Notes under the pieces: model-generated
The model's database searches: none
What the model saw: the letters and a program-made list of their open reading frames with translations, nothing else
Told to the model about the DNA's origin: nothing
In this document: one piece after another, positions 27,532 through 64,000 of the stretch
Numbering within the stretch: position 1 is the first letter of the stretch
Layout of the letters: each line of letters begins with the position of its first letter
Made by a program: the position numbers and the translations under genes
From: Sagittula stellata E-37
GTDB taxonomy: Bacteria > Pseudomonadota > Alphaproteobacteria > Rhodobacterales > Rhodobacteraceae
DNA: 64,000 bases
NCBI RefSeq assembly: GCF_039724765.1
Contig: NZ_CP155729.1
Location: 1,741,001-1,805,000, forward strand
Reading direction: 5' to 3'

Positions 27532-30500
27532 TCAGCCCAGTTCGGAGAGACGGGCCAAGGCGTCCTTGATCTTGGCTTCGTCGGCTTCTCGCGCAGCGAG
27601 GTTGTCGCGCGCCTCCTCCACCACTTCGTCGGGCGCGGACTCGATGAACTTGGGATTGTTCAGACGTCCACGCAGGCCGCCCAGCTCTTTCGCCAGCTTG
27701 CCAAGCGTCTTTTCGAGCCGTGCCTTTTCCTCGGCCACGTCGATGATGTCGGCCAATGGCAAGGCGAGTGTGGCGGCCCCCACGGGAATGGTGATGCAGC
27801 CCTTCGGGAAGGCCCGGACCTCGTCCATGCTCTCGATCCGGGCGAGGCGCTTGATGAGCACCTCGTTGCGTTGCCACGCGCCACGTTCGTCGTCGGACAT
27901 GCCATTGACCAGCGTCGGAACGTAAAGGCCGGCTGGCACGTGCATCTGCGCGCGGGCAGAGCGGACGCCCTCGATCAGCGCAATGACCCAGGACATTTCG
28001 GCATCGGCCTTTTCATCCACCGCGGCAGAGGCCTCGTAAGTCGGCCAGTCGGCGTGCACCAGCATCTTGGACCGCTCGCCCAGCGTGCCCCAAAGCTCTT
28101 CGGTGATGAAGGGCATGATCGGGTGCAGCATGATGAGGCACTGGTCCAGCACCCAGGCCATGGTGGCGCGGGTTTCTGTCACGACGGCGGGATTCTCCGC
28201 GTCGAACAGAGGTTTGGAGAATTCAACGTACCAGTCGCAGACCTTGCCCCAGACGAAGCCGTAGAGCGCCGAGGCCGCATCGTTGAAGCGGTACTCCTTC
28301 AGCGCGAGGTCGACGGTTTCGCGGACACGGGCTGTTTCGCCGACGATCCACTTGTTCACCGTCTGCTGGGCGGGCACCACCCAAGCCGGGTCCGCGGCGC
28401 TTTCGTGCGAGTCGAAGACGTGGTTCATCTCTGCGAAGCGACACGCGTTCCACAGCTTTGTGCCGAAGTTCCTGTATCCCGCGATCCGGTCCACGGACAG
28501 CTTCAGCACGCCGCCGATGGAGGCCATGGACGCATTGGTGAACCGCAGTGCGTCGGCGCCGTATTCGTCCACGATTTCAAGCGGGTCGATGACGTTGCCG
28601 GTCGTCTTGGACATCTTCTTGCCCTTCTCGTCGCGGACGAGCTGGTGCAGGTAGACGGTGTGGAACGGGATCTCGTCCACCACGGCAAGTTGCATCATGA
28701 TCATGCGCGCCACCCAGAAGAACAGGATGTCGGAGCCAGTGATCAGCACGTCCGTCGGGAAGTAGCGCTTCATCTCCTCGGTCGGTTCCGGCCAGCCAAG
28801 GGTCCCGATCGGCCAGAGACCGGACGAGAACCATGTGTCCAGAACGTCCGGGTCACGGAAGATCGGCAATTGCATCGGACCGTCGAAGGTGCGGATCGTG
28901 CCCTCGTCGGCCACGTCCATGGTCTCGCGCAGCTGGACCAGCACTTCGGCGGCCTCGGCGGCGTCGGCAACGACGCGGAATTCCGTGCCTTCGGCCGACA
29001 TGGCGACGGCCTTTTCAAGCGCTTCTGCTTCGGTCGCGGCGCAGATCGGGAACCAGTCTTCCTCGCCGGGGATGTACCAGACCGGGATCTGGTGGCCCCA
29101 CCAGAGTTGACGGGAGATGCACCAAGGCTCGATGTTCTCCAGCCAGTGGTAGTAAGTCTTTTCGCCCGACTCCGGCATGATGGTGATGCGTCCGGAACGG
29201 ACCGCGTCCAGCGCCGGGCCGACGACTTTCTCGGCATCGACGAACCACTGGTCGGTCAACATCGGTTCGATCACCACCTTCGAACGGTCGCCAAAGGGCT
29301 GCATGATCGGCTTGGACTCGACGAGCGGCACGAGTTCTTCTGAGCGATCCTCGCCGCCTTCTTCGGGAGCGACCGGCGCCTTGATTGGTTTGCCGAGGCG
29401 CGGATCGGTGGGCTCCGTCATCACTGCCAGACCCTCGGCGGTGATCTCCGCCACGACCTTTTCGCGCGCTTCGAAGCGGTCGAGCCCGCGCAGGTGGTCG
29501 GGCACGAGATTGATGAGGTCGGTCTCTGCCTCTGTCAGGGTCCGGTCGCCCTTGGCCACGGCCATGGCAATCTCGGCAGCCTCGGCATAGGACGCGCCGT
29601 CGTCACGCATGTACCCGGCGCGGTCCATCAGACGGTACATCGGAATGCCGCCGCGCTTGGCCACCTGGTAGTCGTTGAAGTCATGCGCCCCGGTGATCTT
29701 GACCGCGCCGGAGCCGAAAGTCGGATCAGGGTATTCGTCGGTGATGATCGGGATCAGGCGGCGGTGTTCCTTCGGTCCAACCGGGATCTCGCACAACTGG
29801 CCGACGATGGGGGCGTACCGCTCATCGGAGGGATGCACCGCGACGGCACCATCGCCCAGCATGGTCTCGGGCCGGGTGGTGGCAATGGAAATGTAGTCGC
29901 GCTCTTCCTCGAAGACGACGTTACCGTCCTCGTCCTTCTCGACGTAGACATAGGTCGCCCCGCCCGCGAGCGGGTACTTGAAGTGCCACATGTGGCCCGG
30001 CGTCTCGATGTTCTCCACCTCCAGATCGGAAATGGCGGTCTCGAAGTGCGGGTCCCAGTTCACCAGCCGCTTGCCGCGGTAAATCAGGCCCTTCTGGTAC
30101 ATGTCGACGAAGACCTTGATGACGGCATCGTGGAAGTTGCCGCGGCTGTCAGCCTCCGGCGCACCGGGCGCGCCGGACATGGTGAAGGCGTTGCGGTCCC
30201 AGTCGCAGGAATCGCCGATGCGCTTCATCTGATCGATGATCGTGCCGCCGTACTGCGTCTTCCAGTCCCAGACATGGTTCAGGAATTCCGCCCGGGTCAT
30301 ATCGGTGCGGCGGACGTTCTTTTCCGCCTTCAGCTTCTTTTCGACCTGAAGCTGGGTGGCAATGCCCGCGTGGTCCTGCCCGGGTTGCCAGAGGGTGTCG
30401 AACCCGCGCATCCGGTGCCAGCGGACGAGGATGTCCATAAGGGTGTGGTTGAAGGCGTGGCCCACGTGCAGAGCGCCGGTCACGTTCGGAGGCGGCAGCA

Positions 30501-30621
30501 TGATGCTGAACGACTCGTCGCGCGACTTGTTGGCGCCGGCGCGGAAGGCTCCGCTGTCGAGCCACTTGGCCGAGAGACGCGGTTCTGCCTCTGCGGCGTT
30601 GAATGTCTTTTCCAAAGGCAT
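27532..30621 (-). CDS. valS: Valyl-tRNA synthetase
   Basis: A class I synthetase of 1029 residues charging tRNA-Val. The HIGH motif reads HVGH ([16 protein letters not shown], near residue 50) and the KMSKS motif reads KMSKT. The large CP1 editing domain lies between them, and the C-terminal coiled coil ([24 protein letters not shown]) is typical. The start at 30621 ([15 protein letters not shown]) has GAGG upstream. The same frame stays open upstream into the hairpin array only because those repeats lack stops. Confidence 0.95.
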
Positions 30622-30815
30622 GTTGGGACCTCGTGTTCTTTGGGGTCTGTTACCGAATGGCGGCGGGAAGGGGAAGGCTTTGGCGTCCTGGCGCCGGTCG
30701 GGACGGACCTGTTTCCTTCGGAAAGGCGGCCCGCCCGCCCGGGCGAACCCGTTTCTTGCGGAACCGGGGCCTGAGGGGAAACAACGCAGAACCACATCGG
30801 GATCCGGCTGGCATG

Positions 30816-30847
30816 AAAAAAGCCCGCGGTGACGGGCACCGCGGGCT
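30816..30847 (-). terminator. Rho-independent terminator ending the small-RNA array
   Basis: On the minus strand a perfect 10-bp stem (30838-30847 with 30821-30830) with a 7-nt loop is followed by six U. It closes the DUF1127/small-RNA transcription unit and stops about 195 bp before valS. Confidence 0.92.
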
Positions 30848-30886
30848 GAGTATACGAGCGCCCCAGGGAGGAGGAGAGGGGCCTCG
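30816..30886 (-). ncRNA. CcsR/cuckoo-type small RNA unit 5 (hairpin A plus terminator)
   Basis: Hairpin A has the invariant 13-nt loop (minus strand UCUCCUCCUCCCU; plus-strand 30865-30877) on a stem of 5 bp plus 4 bp with one bulged base. Its 3' partner is the GC-rich terminator hairpin instead of a second CCUCC loop. It is the last unit of the array. Confidence 0.7.
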
Positions 30887-30900
30887 ATCCGAAATGGAGT

Positions 30901-30968
30901 GCGGCGGCACCAGGGAGGAGGAGAGGTGCCGCCGCTTATGCTCGAACCCCAGGGAGGAGGAGAGGGGT
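30901..30968 (-). ncRNA. CcsR/cuckoo-type small RNA unit 4 (hairpins C and B)
   Basis: Hairpin C (stem 30946-30950 with 30964-30968) comes first in the transcript and hairpin B (11-bp perfect stem, 30901-30911 with 30925-30935) second; loops start 39 nt apart. It is nearly a copy of unit 3, 102 bp away. Confidence 0.85.
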
Positions 30969-31002
30969 CAGGCATAGTCTGGCCCGAAGGCCGTTGTAGG
31001 GT

Positions 31003-31070
31003 GCGACGGTGCCAGGGAGGAGGAGAGGCACCGCCGCTTATGCTCGAACCCCAGGGAGGAGGAGAGGGGT
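31003..31070 (-). ncRNA. CcsR/cuckoo-type small RNA unit 3 (hairpins E and D)
   Basis: Hairpin E (31048-31052 with 31066-31070) is followed by hairpin D (31007-31013 with 31027-31033, extended by 3 bp after a mismatch). Both carry the invariant loop. A 64-bp block (31031-31094) is identical to 30929-30992 of unit 4 and its spacer. Confidence 0.85.
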
Positions 31071-31106
31071 CAGGCATAGTCTGGCCCGAAGGCCTTTGTT
31101 CGTTGC

Positions 31107-31177
31107 GCGGCGGCGCCAGGGAGGAGGAGAGGCGCCGCCGCTGATGCTAAGACCCCAGGGAGGAGGAGAGGGGGCTT
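31107..31177 (-). ncRNA. CcsR/cuckoo-type small RNA unit 2 (hairpins G and F)
   Basis: Hairpin G (CCCC/GGGG stem, extended by 3 bp after an A-G mismatch, loop 31157-31169) is followed by hairpin F (11-bp perfect stem, 31107-31117 with 31131-31141). Loops start 39 nt apart. Confidence 0.85.
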
Positions 31178-31211
31178 GCATCTCTGGGCCTGTCGGCCCG
31201 TTGTTTCTTGT

Positions 31212-31281
31212 GGCGGTGCATCCAGGGAGGAGGAGAGGATGCACCGCCTAAGACGGAAGGGGCGGGAGGAGGAGTGCCCCT
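31212..31281 (-). ncRNA. CcsR/cuckoo-type small RNA unit 1 (hairpins I and H)
   Basis: Hairpin I (31258-31263 with 31276-31281) lies 8 bp after the DUF1127 stop and has a 12-nt loop in which the outer A residues of the motif are lost. Hairpin H has the longest stem (12 bp, 31212-31223 with 31237-31248) and the invariant loop. It is the first unit of the array. Confidence 0.8.
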
Positions 31282-31289
31282 AGCCGAAT

Positions 31290-31505
31290 TCAGAGTTCGT
31301 ATGCCGCCTGGTAGGCCACGCGACGGATTTCGCTGCGGCCAAGGCCCAGATCGGCCAGTTCGCGGTTGCTGAGCGACGACAGCTCACGGAAAGTCTGGTT
31401 GAAGACCTTGCGACGTGCGCGGCGTGCGCGGATGGTTTCGACGATCCCGGAGAAGCTGGTCAAAGCGCTTTGGGGCTGCGTCGTGTATTCGGTTGCGTGT
31501 GCCAT
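31290..31505 (-). CDS. DUF1127 protein, CcaF1-like, leader gene of the small-RNA array
   Basis: A 71-residue basic protein (MAHATEYTTQPQ...) with the DUF1127 core FRELSSLSNRELADLGLGRSEI and an Arg-rich helix before it. In Rhodobacter the DUF1127 protein CcaF1, of similar size, binds RNA and helps mature the co-transcribed CcsR small RNAs; this gene has the same position and size. GAGG about 9 nt before the ATG at 31505 fixes the start; the frame extends to 31547 without an RBS. Confidence 0.88.
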   Translation of the reverse strand: MAHATEYTTQPQSALTSFSGIVETIRARRARRKVFNQTFRELSSLSNRELADLGLGRSEIRRVAYQAAYEL

Positions 31506-31547
31506 GATTACGTGCCTCTGTTGGCGTTGCTGCCTCGGTTGATCCAA

Positions 31548-31575
31548 AGATGGAGCAAATGCTGCGGGTGCACAA
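31548..31575 (-). promoter_or_regulatory. Candidate heat-shock-type promoter of the DUF1127/small-RNA unit
   Basis: On the minus strand TTGTGC (31575-31570), a 16-bp spacer and CCATCT (31553-31548) resemble the -35 and CCAT-type -10 of RpoH promoters. CcsR arrays are known to be stress-induced through RpoH factors. The match is by eye only. Confidence 0.4.
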
Positions 31576-31728
31576 CGCCCTCATCGACAATGCTGCCATG
31601 CGGAATGTGCATACAACATGCGAGTTTTGCTTATTATTTAGCAAGCTTGGTGTGCAGCATTTCGGTCTTCGGTTGAGGCGACGCGGGGTAAACGCCACTG
31701 AAAGCGGCAAAAGGAAGGGTATCGGGCG

Positions 31729-32793
31729 ATGACTTTGGAAAAAGCGGACGTCGAATCAATCTTGGCGCGGGTAAAGGTTTCGGAGGGCGAAACCTTGGGC
31801 TCGGCCGACATGATCCGGGCGCTTGTAGTCGAGGGCGGCGCGGTGCGTTTTGTCATCGAGGCGCCCACTCCGGAACGTGCGAAGCAGATGGAGGCGGTCA
31901 GGGCGGACGCGGAGGCGGCGGTGCGGGCGATTCCCGGCGTGACTTCTGTTTCTGTTGCGCTCACGGCGCACGGCCCTTCGAAACCTGCCCCGTCGCTCAA
32001 GATGGGCGGTCACATGCAGCCGCAGGCCGGGCCGATGAAGCCGGAGGGGGTCAAGGCAATCATCGCCATTGGCTCCGGCAAGGGCGGTGTGGGGAAATCC
32101 ACCGTTTCGTCCAACCTCGCCGTCGCGCTCGCGCGCGCGGGCAAGAAGGTCGGGTTGCTGGATGCGGACATCCACGGTCCGTCACAGCCGCGCATGTTCG
32201 GTATCACCAAACGTCCGGCCAGCCCGGACGGAAAGACCATCGAGCCGCTGCACGCGCATGGCGTCACCCTCATGTCGGTCGGTGCCATGTTGCCGGAAGA
32301 AAAGGCGGTGATCTGGCGGGGTCCGATGTTGATGGGCGCGCTGCAGCAGATGTTGATGCAGGTTGCCTGGGGGCCACTTGATGTGCTGCTGATCGACCTT
32401 CCGCCGGGCACGGGGGACGTGCAGCTTACACTGGGGCAGAAGTCGCAGCTTGCCGGGGCGATCGTGGTCAGCACGCCCCAGGATGTGGCCTTGCTCGATG
32501 CCAAGAAAGCATTGGATGCCTTCGCCACGCTGAAGGTGCCAGTACTGGGTCTCATTGAAAACATGGCCGTCTTCACCTGTCCGCATTGCGGCAAGGACAG
32601 TCATATCTTCGGTCACGGCGGAGTCGCGGCAGAGGCGGAGCGGCTCAGTCTTCCGCTGCTGGCCCAGTTGCCCATCGACCTCGACACCCGCGTGTCGGGC
32701 GATGCGGGGACGCCGGTGGCTCTGGGCGACGGGCTCATGGCGGAGGCCTACGCCAAGCTTGCGGACCGTTTTATAAGGGGCGGACTGGTCTGA
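31729..32793 (+). CDS. mrp: Mrp/ApbC-family Fe-S carrier ATPase
   Basis: A 354-residue P-loop protein of the Mrp/NBP35 family. It has an N-terminal MIP18-type (DUF59) domain (residues 1-80), then the deviant Walker [10 protein letters not shown] (near residue 115) and a CxxC ([10 protein letters not shown]) that holds a bridging Fe-S cluster in this family. It is thought to deliver clusters to apoproteins. GGAAGGG precedes ATG 31729. Its promoter region is shared with the divergent DUF1127 gene. Confidence 0.9.
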
Positions 32794-51597: not shown

Positions 51598-52020
51598 CTT
51601 GGGTCACCACAAAATGCGTAAATGGAATTGTGGTCAGTCTGGCACATGTCCGGGCGCAGCGGAACCGGCGAAGGGGACCGGGGCTATGGAAAGTCCTGAA
51701 TTCCTGACGGGTTCCGGTCGTGCACCGGCTTTGGCCTCCTGTCCGTTGCCCACGCAACAGGCAGTGTGGCGCGGCCCACACGCCCGAGTCGCAGTGGGCC
51801 TGTGGGGCATTTTCCGCAACCATACATGCCTGTTTCGGCGAATGGGTCGTGATCGGCACGTCGGAGTCGCGCGCCCCTCCCGTATCATCGGACGGTGATT
51901 GCTCAAGGTTTGGGCGAGCGTGGGAAAAACTCGCCGCTTTATTGTGCCGTGGGCGCAAATGCCCCTGTCCGGTCGTCGGATCTGTTGCCGCAGCGCCGGT
52001 GACTGTCGCTTGATGAGGGG
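51598..52020. other. Divergent intergenic region upstream of the guanidine riboswitch
   Basis: About 420 bp between the envelope operon and the riboswitch. It should hold divergent promoters for both operons. No gene is credible on either strand, and no riboswitch motif is visible on the minus strand. Confidence 0.4.
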
Positions 52021-52021
52021 G

Positions 52022-52137
52022 CAGGGCGTTTAGGGTTCCACCGCCATACGGCGGGTTCGGTCCGAGAAATGCCACCCGGCGGGCAAACTCCCGCAGGGCA
52101 CACGGCGGGGCAAAATCCCGGGAGACTTCACTGCGTC
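52022..52137 (+). promoter_or_regulatory. Guanidine-I (ykkC) riboswitch
   Basis: The conserved guanidine-I blocks occur in order: TAGGGTTCC (52031-52039), GGTCCGAGA (52059-52067), ACACGGCGGGG (52100-52110), CAAAA (52111-52115) and CCCGGGAGA (52117-52125). The P3 block with ACGGCGGG...CCCGGGAGA marks the guanidine-binding subtype. It lies about 90 bp before the SBP gene. No T-rich terminator follows, so control may be at translation or by Rho. Confidence 0.93.
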
Positions 52138-63791: not shown

Positions 63792-64000
63792 CAACTTGAG
63801 AGTTTGATCCTGGCTCAGAACGAACGCTGGCGGCAGGCCTAACACATGCAAGTCGTGCGCGCCTTCGGGTGAGCGGCGGACGGGTGAGTAACACGTGGGA
63901 ATATGCCCTTCTGTTGAGGATAGCCCCGGGAAACTGGGAGTAATACTCGATACGCCCTTTGGGGGAAGGAAGGATTAGCCCGCGTCTGATTAGGTAGTTG
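63792..64000 (+). rRNA. 16S ribosomal RNA, 5' part
   Basis: The sequence CAACTTGAGAGTTTGATCCT followed by GGCTCAGAACGAACGCTGGC is the standard 5' end of alphaproteobacterial 16S, continued by the usual V1-V2 region. It runs off the right edge. Confidence 0.97.

Follow-up and report, generated by a model that had tools for sequence, protein, structure and literature searches.

A nine-hairpin array behind a DUF1127 gene in Sagittula stellata E-37 is, by sequence and predicted structure, a ccaF1-CcsR (cuckoo/CIN1) locus

What kind of RNA is encoded between valS and an mrp/apbC-like gene of Sagittula stellata E-37, and on which mRNAs might it act? We analyzed a window of 64,000 nucleotides (the whole stretch of DNA considered here; contig NZ_CP155729.1 of RefSeq assembly GCF_039724765.1, positions 1,741,001 to 1,805,000). 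On its minus strand, from 31505 to 30816, a DUF1127 gene is followed by nine hairpins with CCUCCUCCC loops and then by a terminator, the whole being flanked by the mrp/apbC-like gene (31729-32793, plus strand) and valS (27532-30621, minus strand). A first-pass annotation had proposed a nine-hairpin CcsR/cuckoo array behind a minus-strand DUF1127 gene, ended by a strong terminator. The open reading frame, its PF06568 score and the nine loop cores confirmed this layout, as did an 11-pair stem followed by U6 at the end of the array. A scan of the minus strand found no terminator-like site between the DUF1127 gene and the array. The parts are as follows.

31290..31505, minus strand: DUF1127 (ccaF1-like) gene, 71 aa (Pfam PF06568, 47.1 bits against a cut-off of 23.3)
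31258..31281, minus strand: hairpin 1, short, unit 1, with the variant loop (fold, loop sequence)
31212..31248, minus strand: hairpin 2, long, unit 1 (fold)
31143..31182, minus strand: hairpin 3, short inner stem, unit 2 (fold)
31107..31141, minus strand: hairpin 4, long, unit 2 (fold, sequence; unit 2 scores 53.1 bits with CcsR1)
31039..31078, minus strand: hairpin 5, short inner stem, unit 3 (fold)
31003..31037, minus strand: hairpin 6, long, unit 3 (fold, sequence; unit 3 scores 61.7 bits with CcsR1)
30937..30976, minus strand: hairpin 7, short inner stem, unit 4 (fold)
30901..30935, minus strand: hairpin 8, long, unit 4 (fold, sequence; unit 4 scores 66.2 bits with CcsR1)
30855..30886, minus strand: hairpin 9, single, ahead of the terminator (fold)
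30816..30847, minus strand: intrinsic terminator, 11-pair stem (30847-30821) plus U6 to 30816; its loop lacks the aSD motif

An open frame of 1181 aa (27532-31077, minus strand) begins within the array, crosses the terminator and runs in frame into valS; its array part would translate as SPPPW-type repeats, and it is probably a chance open frame. Elsewhere the window holds a Guanidine-I riboswitch (52019-52126, plus strand; RF00442, 79.5 bits) and, at its end, the start of a 16S rRNA gene (63792-64000, plus strand; RF00177).

Nine CCTCCTCCC cores lie on the minus strand at spacings of 39, 67, 39, 65, 39, 63, 39 and 47 nt. The loop is exactly UCUCCUCCUCCCU in eight of the nine hairpins, while the first (ACUCCUCCUCCCG) differs at both ends, which bears out its description as near-invariant. 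Searching the window for the 13-mer with at most two mismatches gave 11 sites, nine of them in the array, against an expectation of 1.39 and a maximum of 4 in 100 shuffles; exact CTCCTCCTCCC sites number 15 in the whole 5.29-Mb genome, again with nine in the array. The folded 474-nt array reached -238 kcal/mol, compared with -171.2 (sd 5.6) for 100 shuffles (z = -11.9). Perfect stems alternate along it between short (5-6 bp) and long (11-12 bp), and each pair consists of a short stem and then a long one, so that the proposed arrangement of four pairs, plus one hairpin and the terminator, is upheld by both spacings and fold. The regular period of 39-40 nt held within pairs, whose cores are 39 nt apart, but not from pair to pair (63-67 nt) nor for the single ninth hairpin, which follows the last pair at 47 nt. 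Identity between units is 91% for 3 and 4, 79% for unit 2 against either of these, and about 65% for unit 1 against the others.

The stems had been described as changing yet complementary, and covariation agreed. An alignment of 33 sequences showed changes on both sides, with pairing kept, at 7 of 11 pairs in the long hairpin. With the register fixed, we compared 126 distinct long hairpins and 124 distinct short ones with 100 shuffles: mutual information was higher than in any shuffle at 9 of 12 positions of the long stem and 7 of 8 of the short one, and at 0 of 6 when the partner was slid by 2 in the long hairpins. Relatedness inflates such counts, an objection to which compensating differences within one array are less exposed, and the array itself contains them: the long stems of units 2, 3 and 4 read GGCGCC/GGCGCC, GGTGCC/GGCACC and GGCACC/GGTGCC. 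The RNAalifold consensus lacked the short hairpin, whose arms vary in register.

These results bear on the idea that the hairpins chiefly stabilize or terminate the DUF1127 mRNA, as a structured 3' UTR whose loop is conserved only through the copying of units. Units are indeed duplicated within arrays (16 of 325 unit pairs within arrays are more than 97% identical, as against 1 of 1500 sampled between arrays). However, the stems diverge while the loop core stays, although its invariance is partly by construction, the core being a search term, and a strong terminator is already there; we consider this explanation very unlikely.

To which family does the array belong? By sequence it is a ccaF1-CcsR (cuckoo/CIN1) locus, and layout and covariance model together bear out the first-pass identification, since the failure to match such a model that would have spoken against it did not occur. 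The fit to the CcsR1 model (RF02791, Rfam 15) was nevertheless divided, as one unit (66.2 bits) exceeds the gathering cut-off of 65.3, whereas the other three (61.7, 53.1 and 45.3 bits) fall below it, a difference from R. sphaeroides CcsR1-4. The alpha-r14 model (RF02344) reached at best 48.1 bits in the window, under its cut-off of 58.8. A gathering-level Rfam search of eight related loci returned a single match, indicating that the CcsR1 cut-off misses most arrays. This match was to alpha-r14, in an array behind a DUF1127 gene of Paracoccus versutus (L050:3528-3646), which passed alpha-r14 (61 bits) but not CcsR1; the two Rfam families thus overlap at one locus type.

Our comparison with the Rhodobacter sphaeroides type locus rests on published descriptions. 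As at ccaF1-CcsR1-4 (RF02791, the 'CIN1 locus'), there is a 71-aa DUF1127 gene followed by four co-directional two-loop CCUCCUCCC units and an end terminator (PMC10253847, PMC8307010, PMC12501420). The type locus is reported to encode four homologous CcsR sRNAs (PMC8307010), one of which, RS0680a, has two aSD stem-loops (PMC3927594). Relative to those descriptions, the array in S. stellata has one additional loop hairpin, ahead of the terminator. The alpha-r14/NfeR1 RNAs of rhizobia (RF02344) likewise combine CCUCCUCCC loops and variable stems with an upstream TGCA-N6-GCAT, but the available text describes three hairpins in one short sRNA, without a DUF1127 gene (PMC10746234). The Rfam alpha-r14 model also has the motif in the terminator loop, where it is missing here. 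AbcR1 and AbcR2 of rhizobia share the use of CU-rich aSD motifs on translation initiation regions, and control by LsrB or VtlR has been reported for them (PMC7143759, PMC10746234, PMC7486931); their structure is different, and those excerpts describe two tandem sRNAs rather than an array behind a DUF1127 gene.

Relatives were collected by a DUF1127 protein search, and the best 80 of 203 were kept as named loci. Among these 80, 2 had one loop and 4 had none in a chain (in L035 the sequence stops soon after the gene, and L046 has three loops further on). The first-pass annotation had taken the array for a larger one and had suggested comparing copy number among related genomes. This comparison went against it: the four units equal the four homologous sRNAs of the type locus, and, among the best 80 of 203 relatives, exactly nine loops occur in 3 and more than nine, from 10 to 16, in 22, so that we rejected an exceptionally large array. 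The largest in this set, in Mesobaculum littorinae (L062:3186 onwards), has 16 loops and several identical tandem units. Judged by identity of valS, mrp and DUF1127, the nearest named relatives in the same 80 are Sagittula salina (valS 90, mrp 83 and DUF1127 72%) and S. marina (valS 89%, DUF1127 57%, mrp unmatched in the flank); both have 11 loops.

With R1, a covariance model of the unit built from 33 sequences, 93 of 120 genera sampled from the family proved to have units. Across the class, under strict filters (E <= 1e-5), it detected them in 3 of 289 genomes, each of which belongs to this family. The tandem organization and variable copy number might suggest a mobile or selfish repeat that sits here by chance, and CcsR-like units do occur at two or three separate places in a few genomes of the family (for example G094, G088 and G092). 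However, the four unit matches in the S. stellata genome are all at this locus, and at least two co-directional loops stand behind DUF1127 in 74 of the 80 loci, which had themselves been selected through DUF1127 (best 80 of 203 relatives). We therefore disfavor a chance repeat as extremely improbable.

The first-pass account of the locus, sound on the hairpin layout, did not mention two further elements. One is an extra small hairpin, lacking an aSD loop, in each of the three inter-unit spacers.

31186..31199, minus strand: spacer mini-hairpin GGGCC-GACA-GGCCC, no aSD loop (fold, sequence)
31083..31094, minus strand: spacer mini-hairpin GGCC-UUCG-GGCC (fold, sequence)
30981..30992, minus strand: spacer mini-hairpin GGCC-UUCG-GGCC (fold, sequence)

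Among 150 distinct spacers from 64 loci, 107 contained a perfect stem of at least 5 pairs, compared with 19.9 in mononucleotide shuffles, and 137 a stem of at least 4 pairs, compared with 66.8, with 63 different stems. In the class statistics the stretch ahead of the spacer hairpin is poor in G (G 13, A 31, C 33 and T 24%), which suggests that it is unpaired and a plausible cleavage site. RNase E of R. sphaeroides favors AU-rich single strands (PMC6238624). In a limited literature search, the texts available to us gave no description for CcsR of a spacer hairpin, of paired boxes or of a xoxF-type Shine-Dalgarno (SD) sequence.

The second element is a block upstream of the gene that is more conserved than its surroundings in an alignment of 25 upstream regions.

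31598..31611, minus strand: first TGCA-N6-GCAT box, LysR-type operator-like, TGCACATTCCGCAT
31559..31572, minus strand: second TGCA-N6-GCAT box, 39 nt further downstream; it overlaps the promoter-like stretch
31547..31575, minus strand: promoter-like stretch TTGTGC...CCATCTT, putatively RpoH-like by resemblance

Of 81 loci, 77 have TGCA-N6-GCAT in the 250 nt upstream, as against 0.38 in shuffles, and 63 have a pair of TGCR-N6-GCAT boxes spaced by 39-40 nt. In the 532,504 bp examined from the own genome, including the window, there was only one such pair at 30-50 nt. TGC-N7-GCAT is present in 79 of the 81 loci, TTGTGC in 78 and both in order in 76. For the cuckoo RNA NfeR1, TGCA-N6-GCAT has been reported as the site of LsrB (PMC10746234); by this resemblance the paired boxes are a candidate LysR-type operator. 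The Agrobacterium box for VtlR, GCAT-N3-TG-N3-T (PMC7486931), was absent within 250 nt upstream in the window and present in 16 of 81 loci, compared with 2.3 in shuffles.

The TTG...CCATNTT stretch looks like an RpoH-type promoter. In R. sphaeroides the ccaF1-CcsR promoter is given as RpoHI/RpoHII type (PMC10253847, figure legend), and the key -35 triplet in that species is TTG (PMC3441632). A rigid RpoH pattern, CTTG-N14-20-CYATNT, matched 0 of the 25 upstream regions and was abandoned; TTGTGC and CCATNTT were then read off the alignment. A sigma-70 scan of 30500-31800 found no promoter-like site.

Searched across the class, the operator core TGCATRGCRGCATTG occurred in 45 of 385 genomes, with 49 sites among those listed, against 2 for the backward control; the S. 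stellata genome has no exact match to this pattern. Many of the other sites look like chance occurrences within coding sequence. A DUF1127 gene lay near the site in two of 30 loci from this search, one in the same family (L337) and one in another (L310); that the operator extends to other families is a lead only. In L310 (genome G465) the core TGCATAGCAGCATTG at 1501-1515 has a DUF1127 match on the opposite strand (1167-1349, minus) some 150 nt away, a second DUF1127 match lies at 351-482, and no CCTCCTCC loops were seen downstream of the site.

The loops had been described as complementary to SD sequences, which is correct, and hence as able to act on many mRNAs. This broad statement can be narrowed to candidate targets that carry loop-complementary SDs. 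In the S. stellata genome, GGGAGGAGG-N3-11-ATG gave 13 rows (one inside the array and one a double count), compared with 1 for the backward control. They include pedF (cytochrome c550 PedF, TIGR04494, 195 bits), what we take from its sequence to be a FadL-like protein, which had no NCBIfam match, and two presumed AraC-like regulators, also named from sequence. The shorter requirement GGGAGGAG-N3-10-ATG gave 52 rows against 5 in the control. Three of these lie within 5.8 kb in one cluster for PQQ alcohol oxidation: a gene matching TIGR03075 (770 bits; the model is PQQ-dependent methanol/ethanol dehydrogenase), which we assume to be xoxF, pedF, and a presumptive xoxJ, named from sequence with weak model matches only. 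Other close groups are present among the 52 rows, and clustering alone is weak.

We therefore compared genera (a draw of 120), scoring a loop match of at least 7 nt located 4-20 nt upstream of the start. Starts and background genes were called crudely, by third-position GC, and taking the best of several starts for background genes favors the background; tblastn matches were dropped if identity was below 45%, if they began beyond residue 25-30 or if the start could not be placed. For xoxF, 19 of 22 genera had such a match (21 of its orthologs are 81-100% identical, one 58%); for the PQQ-ABC binding protein the figure was 12 of 17 and for pedF 9 of 20. Two results speak against the target reading, namely 2 of 7 for xoxJ and 0 of 12 for a neighboring cytochrome of the PQQ cluster, here called cycB. 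The background was 26 of 303 own-genome genes and, for genes in the named loci (best 80 of 203 relatives), 5 of 274; the controls gave 0 of 15 for valS, 1 of 45 for mrp and, among the best 80 of 203 relatives, 0 of 80 for DUF1127. With panB, chosen as a control for its strong own site, matches were found in 9 of 30 (best 30 of 68), compared with 17 of 30 for pdhA (best 30 of 112 genomes). The xoxF figure exceeded that of panB (Fisher p = 7e-5), whereas pdhA was weakly above panB and not clearly different (p = 0.07), so that as a conserved target it is suggestive only. These figures count the own genome; when it is excluded they become 18 of 21 for xoxF, 16 of 29 for pdhA and 8 of 29 for panB.

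With the 16S anti-SD the xoxF sites pair over just 5 nt in 19 of 22 genera and 6 nt in 3 of 22, mostly less than with the loop, a shape that suits the CcsR loop better than the ribosome. On the other side, 14 of 303 background genes match the loop over at least 8 nt, so that complementarity alone is insufficient to define targets, and highly expressed genes may carry strong SDs anyway. A CCTCCTCCC core also lies directly 3' of the xoxF-like stop codon in S. stellata (L116:17369; G000:C1, about 2654368); a CCTCCTCC sequence in this position was found in 1 of 22 orthologs and was taken as chance. From sequence complementarity, the most likely targets are the genes for PQQ methanol/alcohol oxidation (xoxF, the PQQ-ABC binding protein and pedF) and, less surely, pdhA. 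Both flhR and the pyruvate dehydrogenase complex are reported to be acted on by CcsR (PMC8307010), and predicted xoxF and pdhA targets fit these reported effects on C1 metabolism; they differ in that predicted direct targets here include xoxF, where flhR is reported in R. sphaeroides. No flhR gene was identified in the S. stellata genome, where gene calls covered about 20 kb to either side of the xoxF cluster. Our limited literature search found no paper naming CcsR and XoxF together.

Could the loops serve proteins rather than mRNAs? The array might be mainly a protein-binding platform whose identical loops titrate CcaF1, Hfq or another binder of C-rich RNA, with SD pairing secondary. The loops are invariant while the stems vary, and CcaF1 is reported to bind RNA and the CcsR RNAs to depend on Hfq (PMC10253847, PMC7866481). 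The function of DUF1127 is debated, with RNA binding described for CcaF1 and protein partners such as PhoR elsewhere (PMC12501420). Against a platform, a conserved, loop-complementary SD in xoxF would be unexpected for a pure sponge, and for NfeR1 the aSD mechanism was demonstrated with reporters, loop mutants losing repression of targets (PMC10746234). We regard a platform of this kind as unlikely.

A ccaF1-CcsR (cuckoo/CIN1) stress locus with SD-blocking sRNAs is, taken as a whole, the best explanation and in our judgment a probable one. Transcription would be linked to stress through the paired LysR-type boxes and the RpoH-like promoter, producing one RNA that encodes the DUF1127 protein and carries a nine-hairpin 3' UTR. 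By homology, cuts in the single-stranded, G-poor linkers (made in R. sphaeroides by RNase E, helped by CcaF1) would release four two-loop sRNAs and a terminal piece. Stable stems would keep the CCUCCUCCC loops open, and these would pair with SD sequences of the GGGAGGA(G) type, blocking translation of selected mRNAs. The number of loops may set the dose and would change through unit duplication. Stress induction, processing by RNase E and CcaF1, and the block by SD occlusion are carried over by analogy from R. sphaeroides and NfeR1. What the sequences themselves show is the conserved layout of the locus, the covarying hairpins with aSD loops, the conserved region with paired boxes and the conserved SDs complementary to the loop; control, processing and targets in S. 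stellata are predictions.

A bolder reading, possible but somewhat doubtful, is that the cuckoo arrays found in Rhodobacteraceae work as aSD modules of tunable dose. Here a redox LysR-type switch would act through the paired boxes, as for rhizobial NfeR1; the sRNAs would directly repress PQQ methanol/alcohol oxidation through the SDs of xoxF (GGGAGGA, with longer pairing to the sRNA loop than to 16S rRNA); and the spacer hairpin would mark the processing site of each mature sRNA.

The analysis assigns the array to a stress-RNA family already known, as a marine bacterium's version of it, and corrects the impression of exceptional size. To the family it adds the spacer mini-hairpins, the conserved upstream block with its paired boxes and a list of predicted targets. 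An action on 'many mRNAs' gives way to short testable lists: a paired operator (63 of 81 loci), a hairpin in the spacers, and a small number of mRNAs in which complementarity of the ribosome-binding site to the loop persists across genera. If the link to xoxF is true, CcsR RNAs could act directly on C1 metabolism in marine Rhodobacteraceae, and the shared box would join the Rhodobacterales and rhizobial branches of the cuckoo RNAs under one kind of redox control. If, as in the bolder reading, the sRNAs repress xoxF directly, oxidative stress would stop formaldehyde production at its source, beyond what is achieved through FlhR alone.
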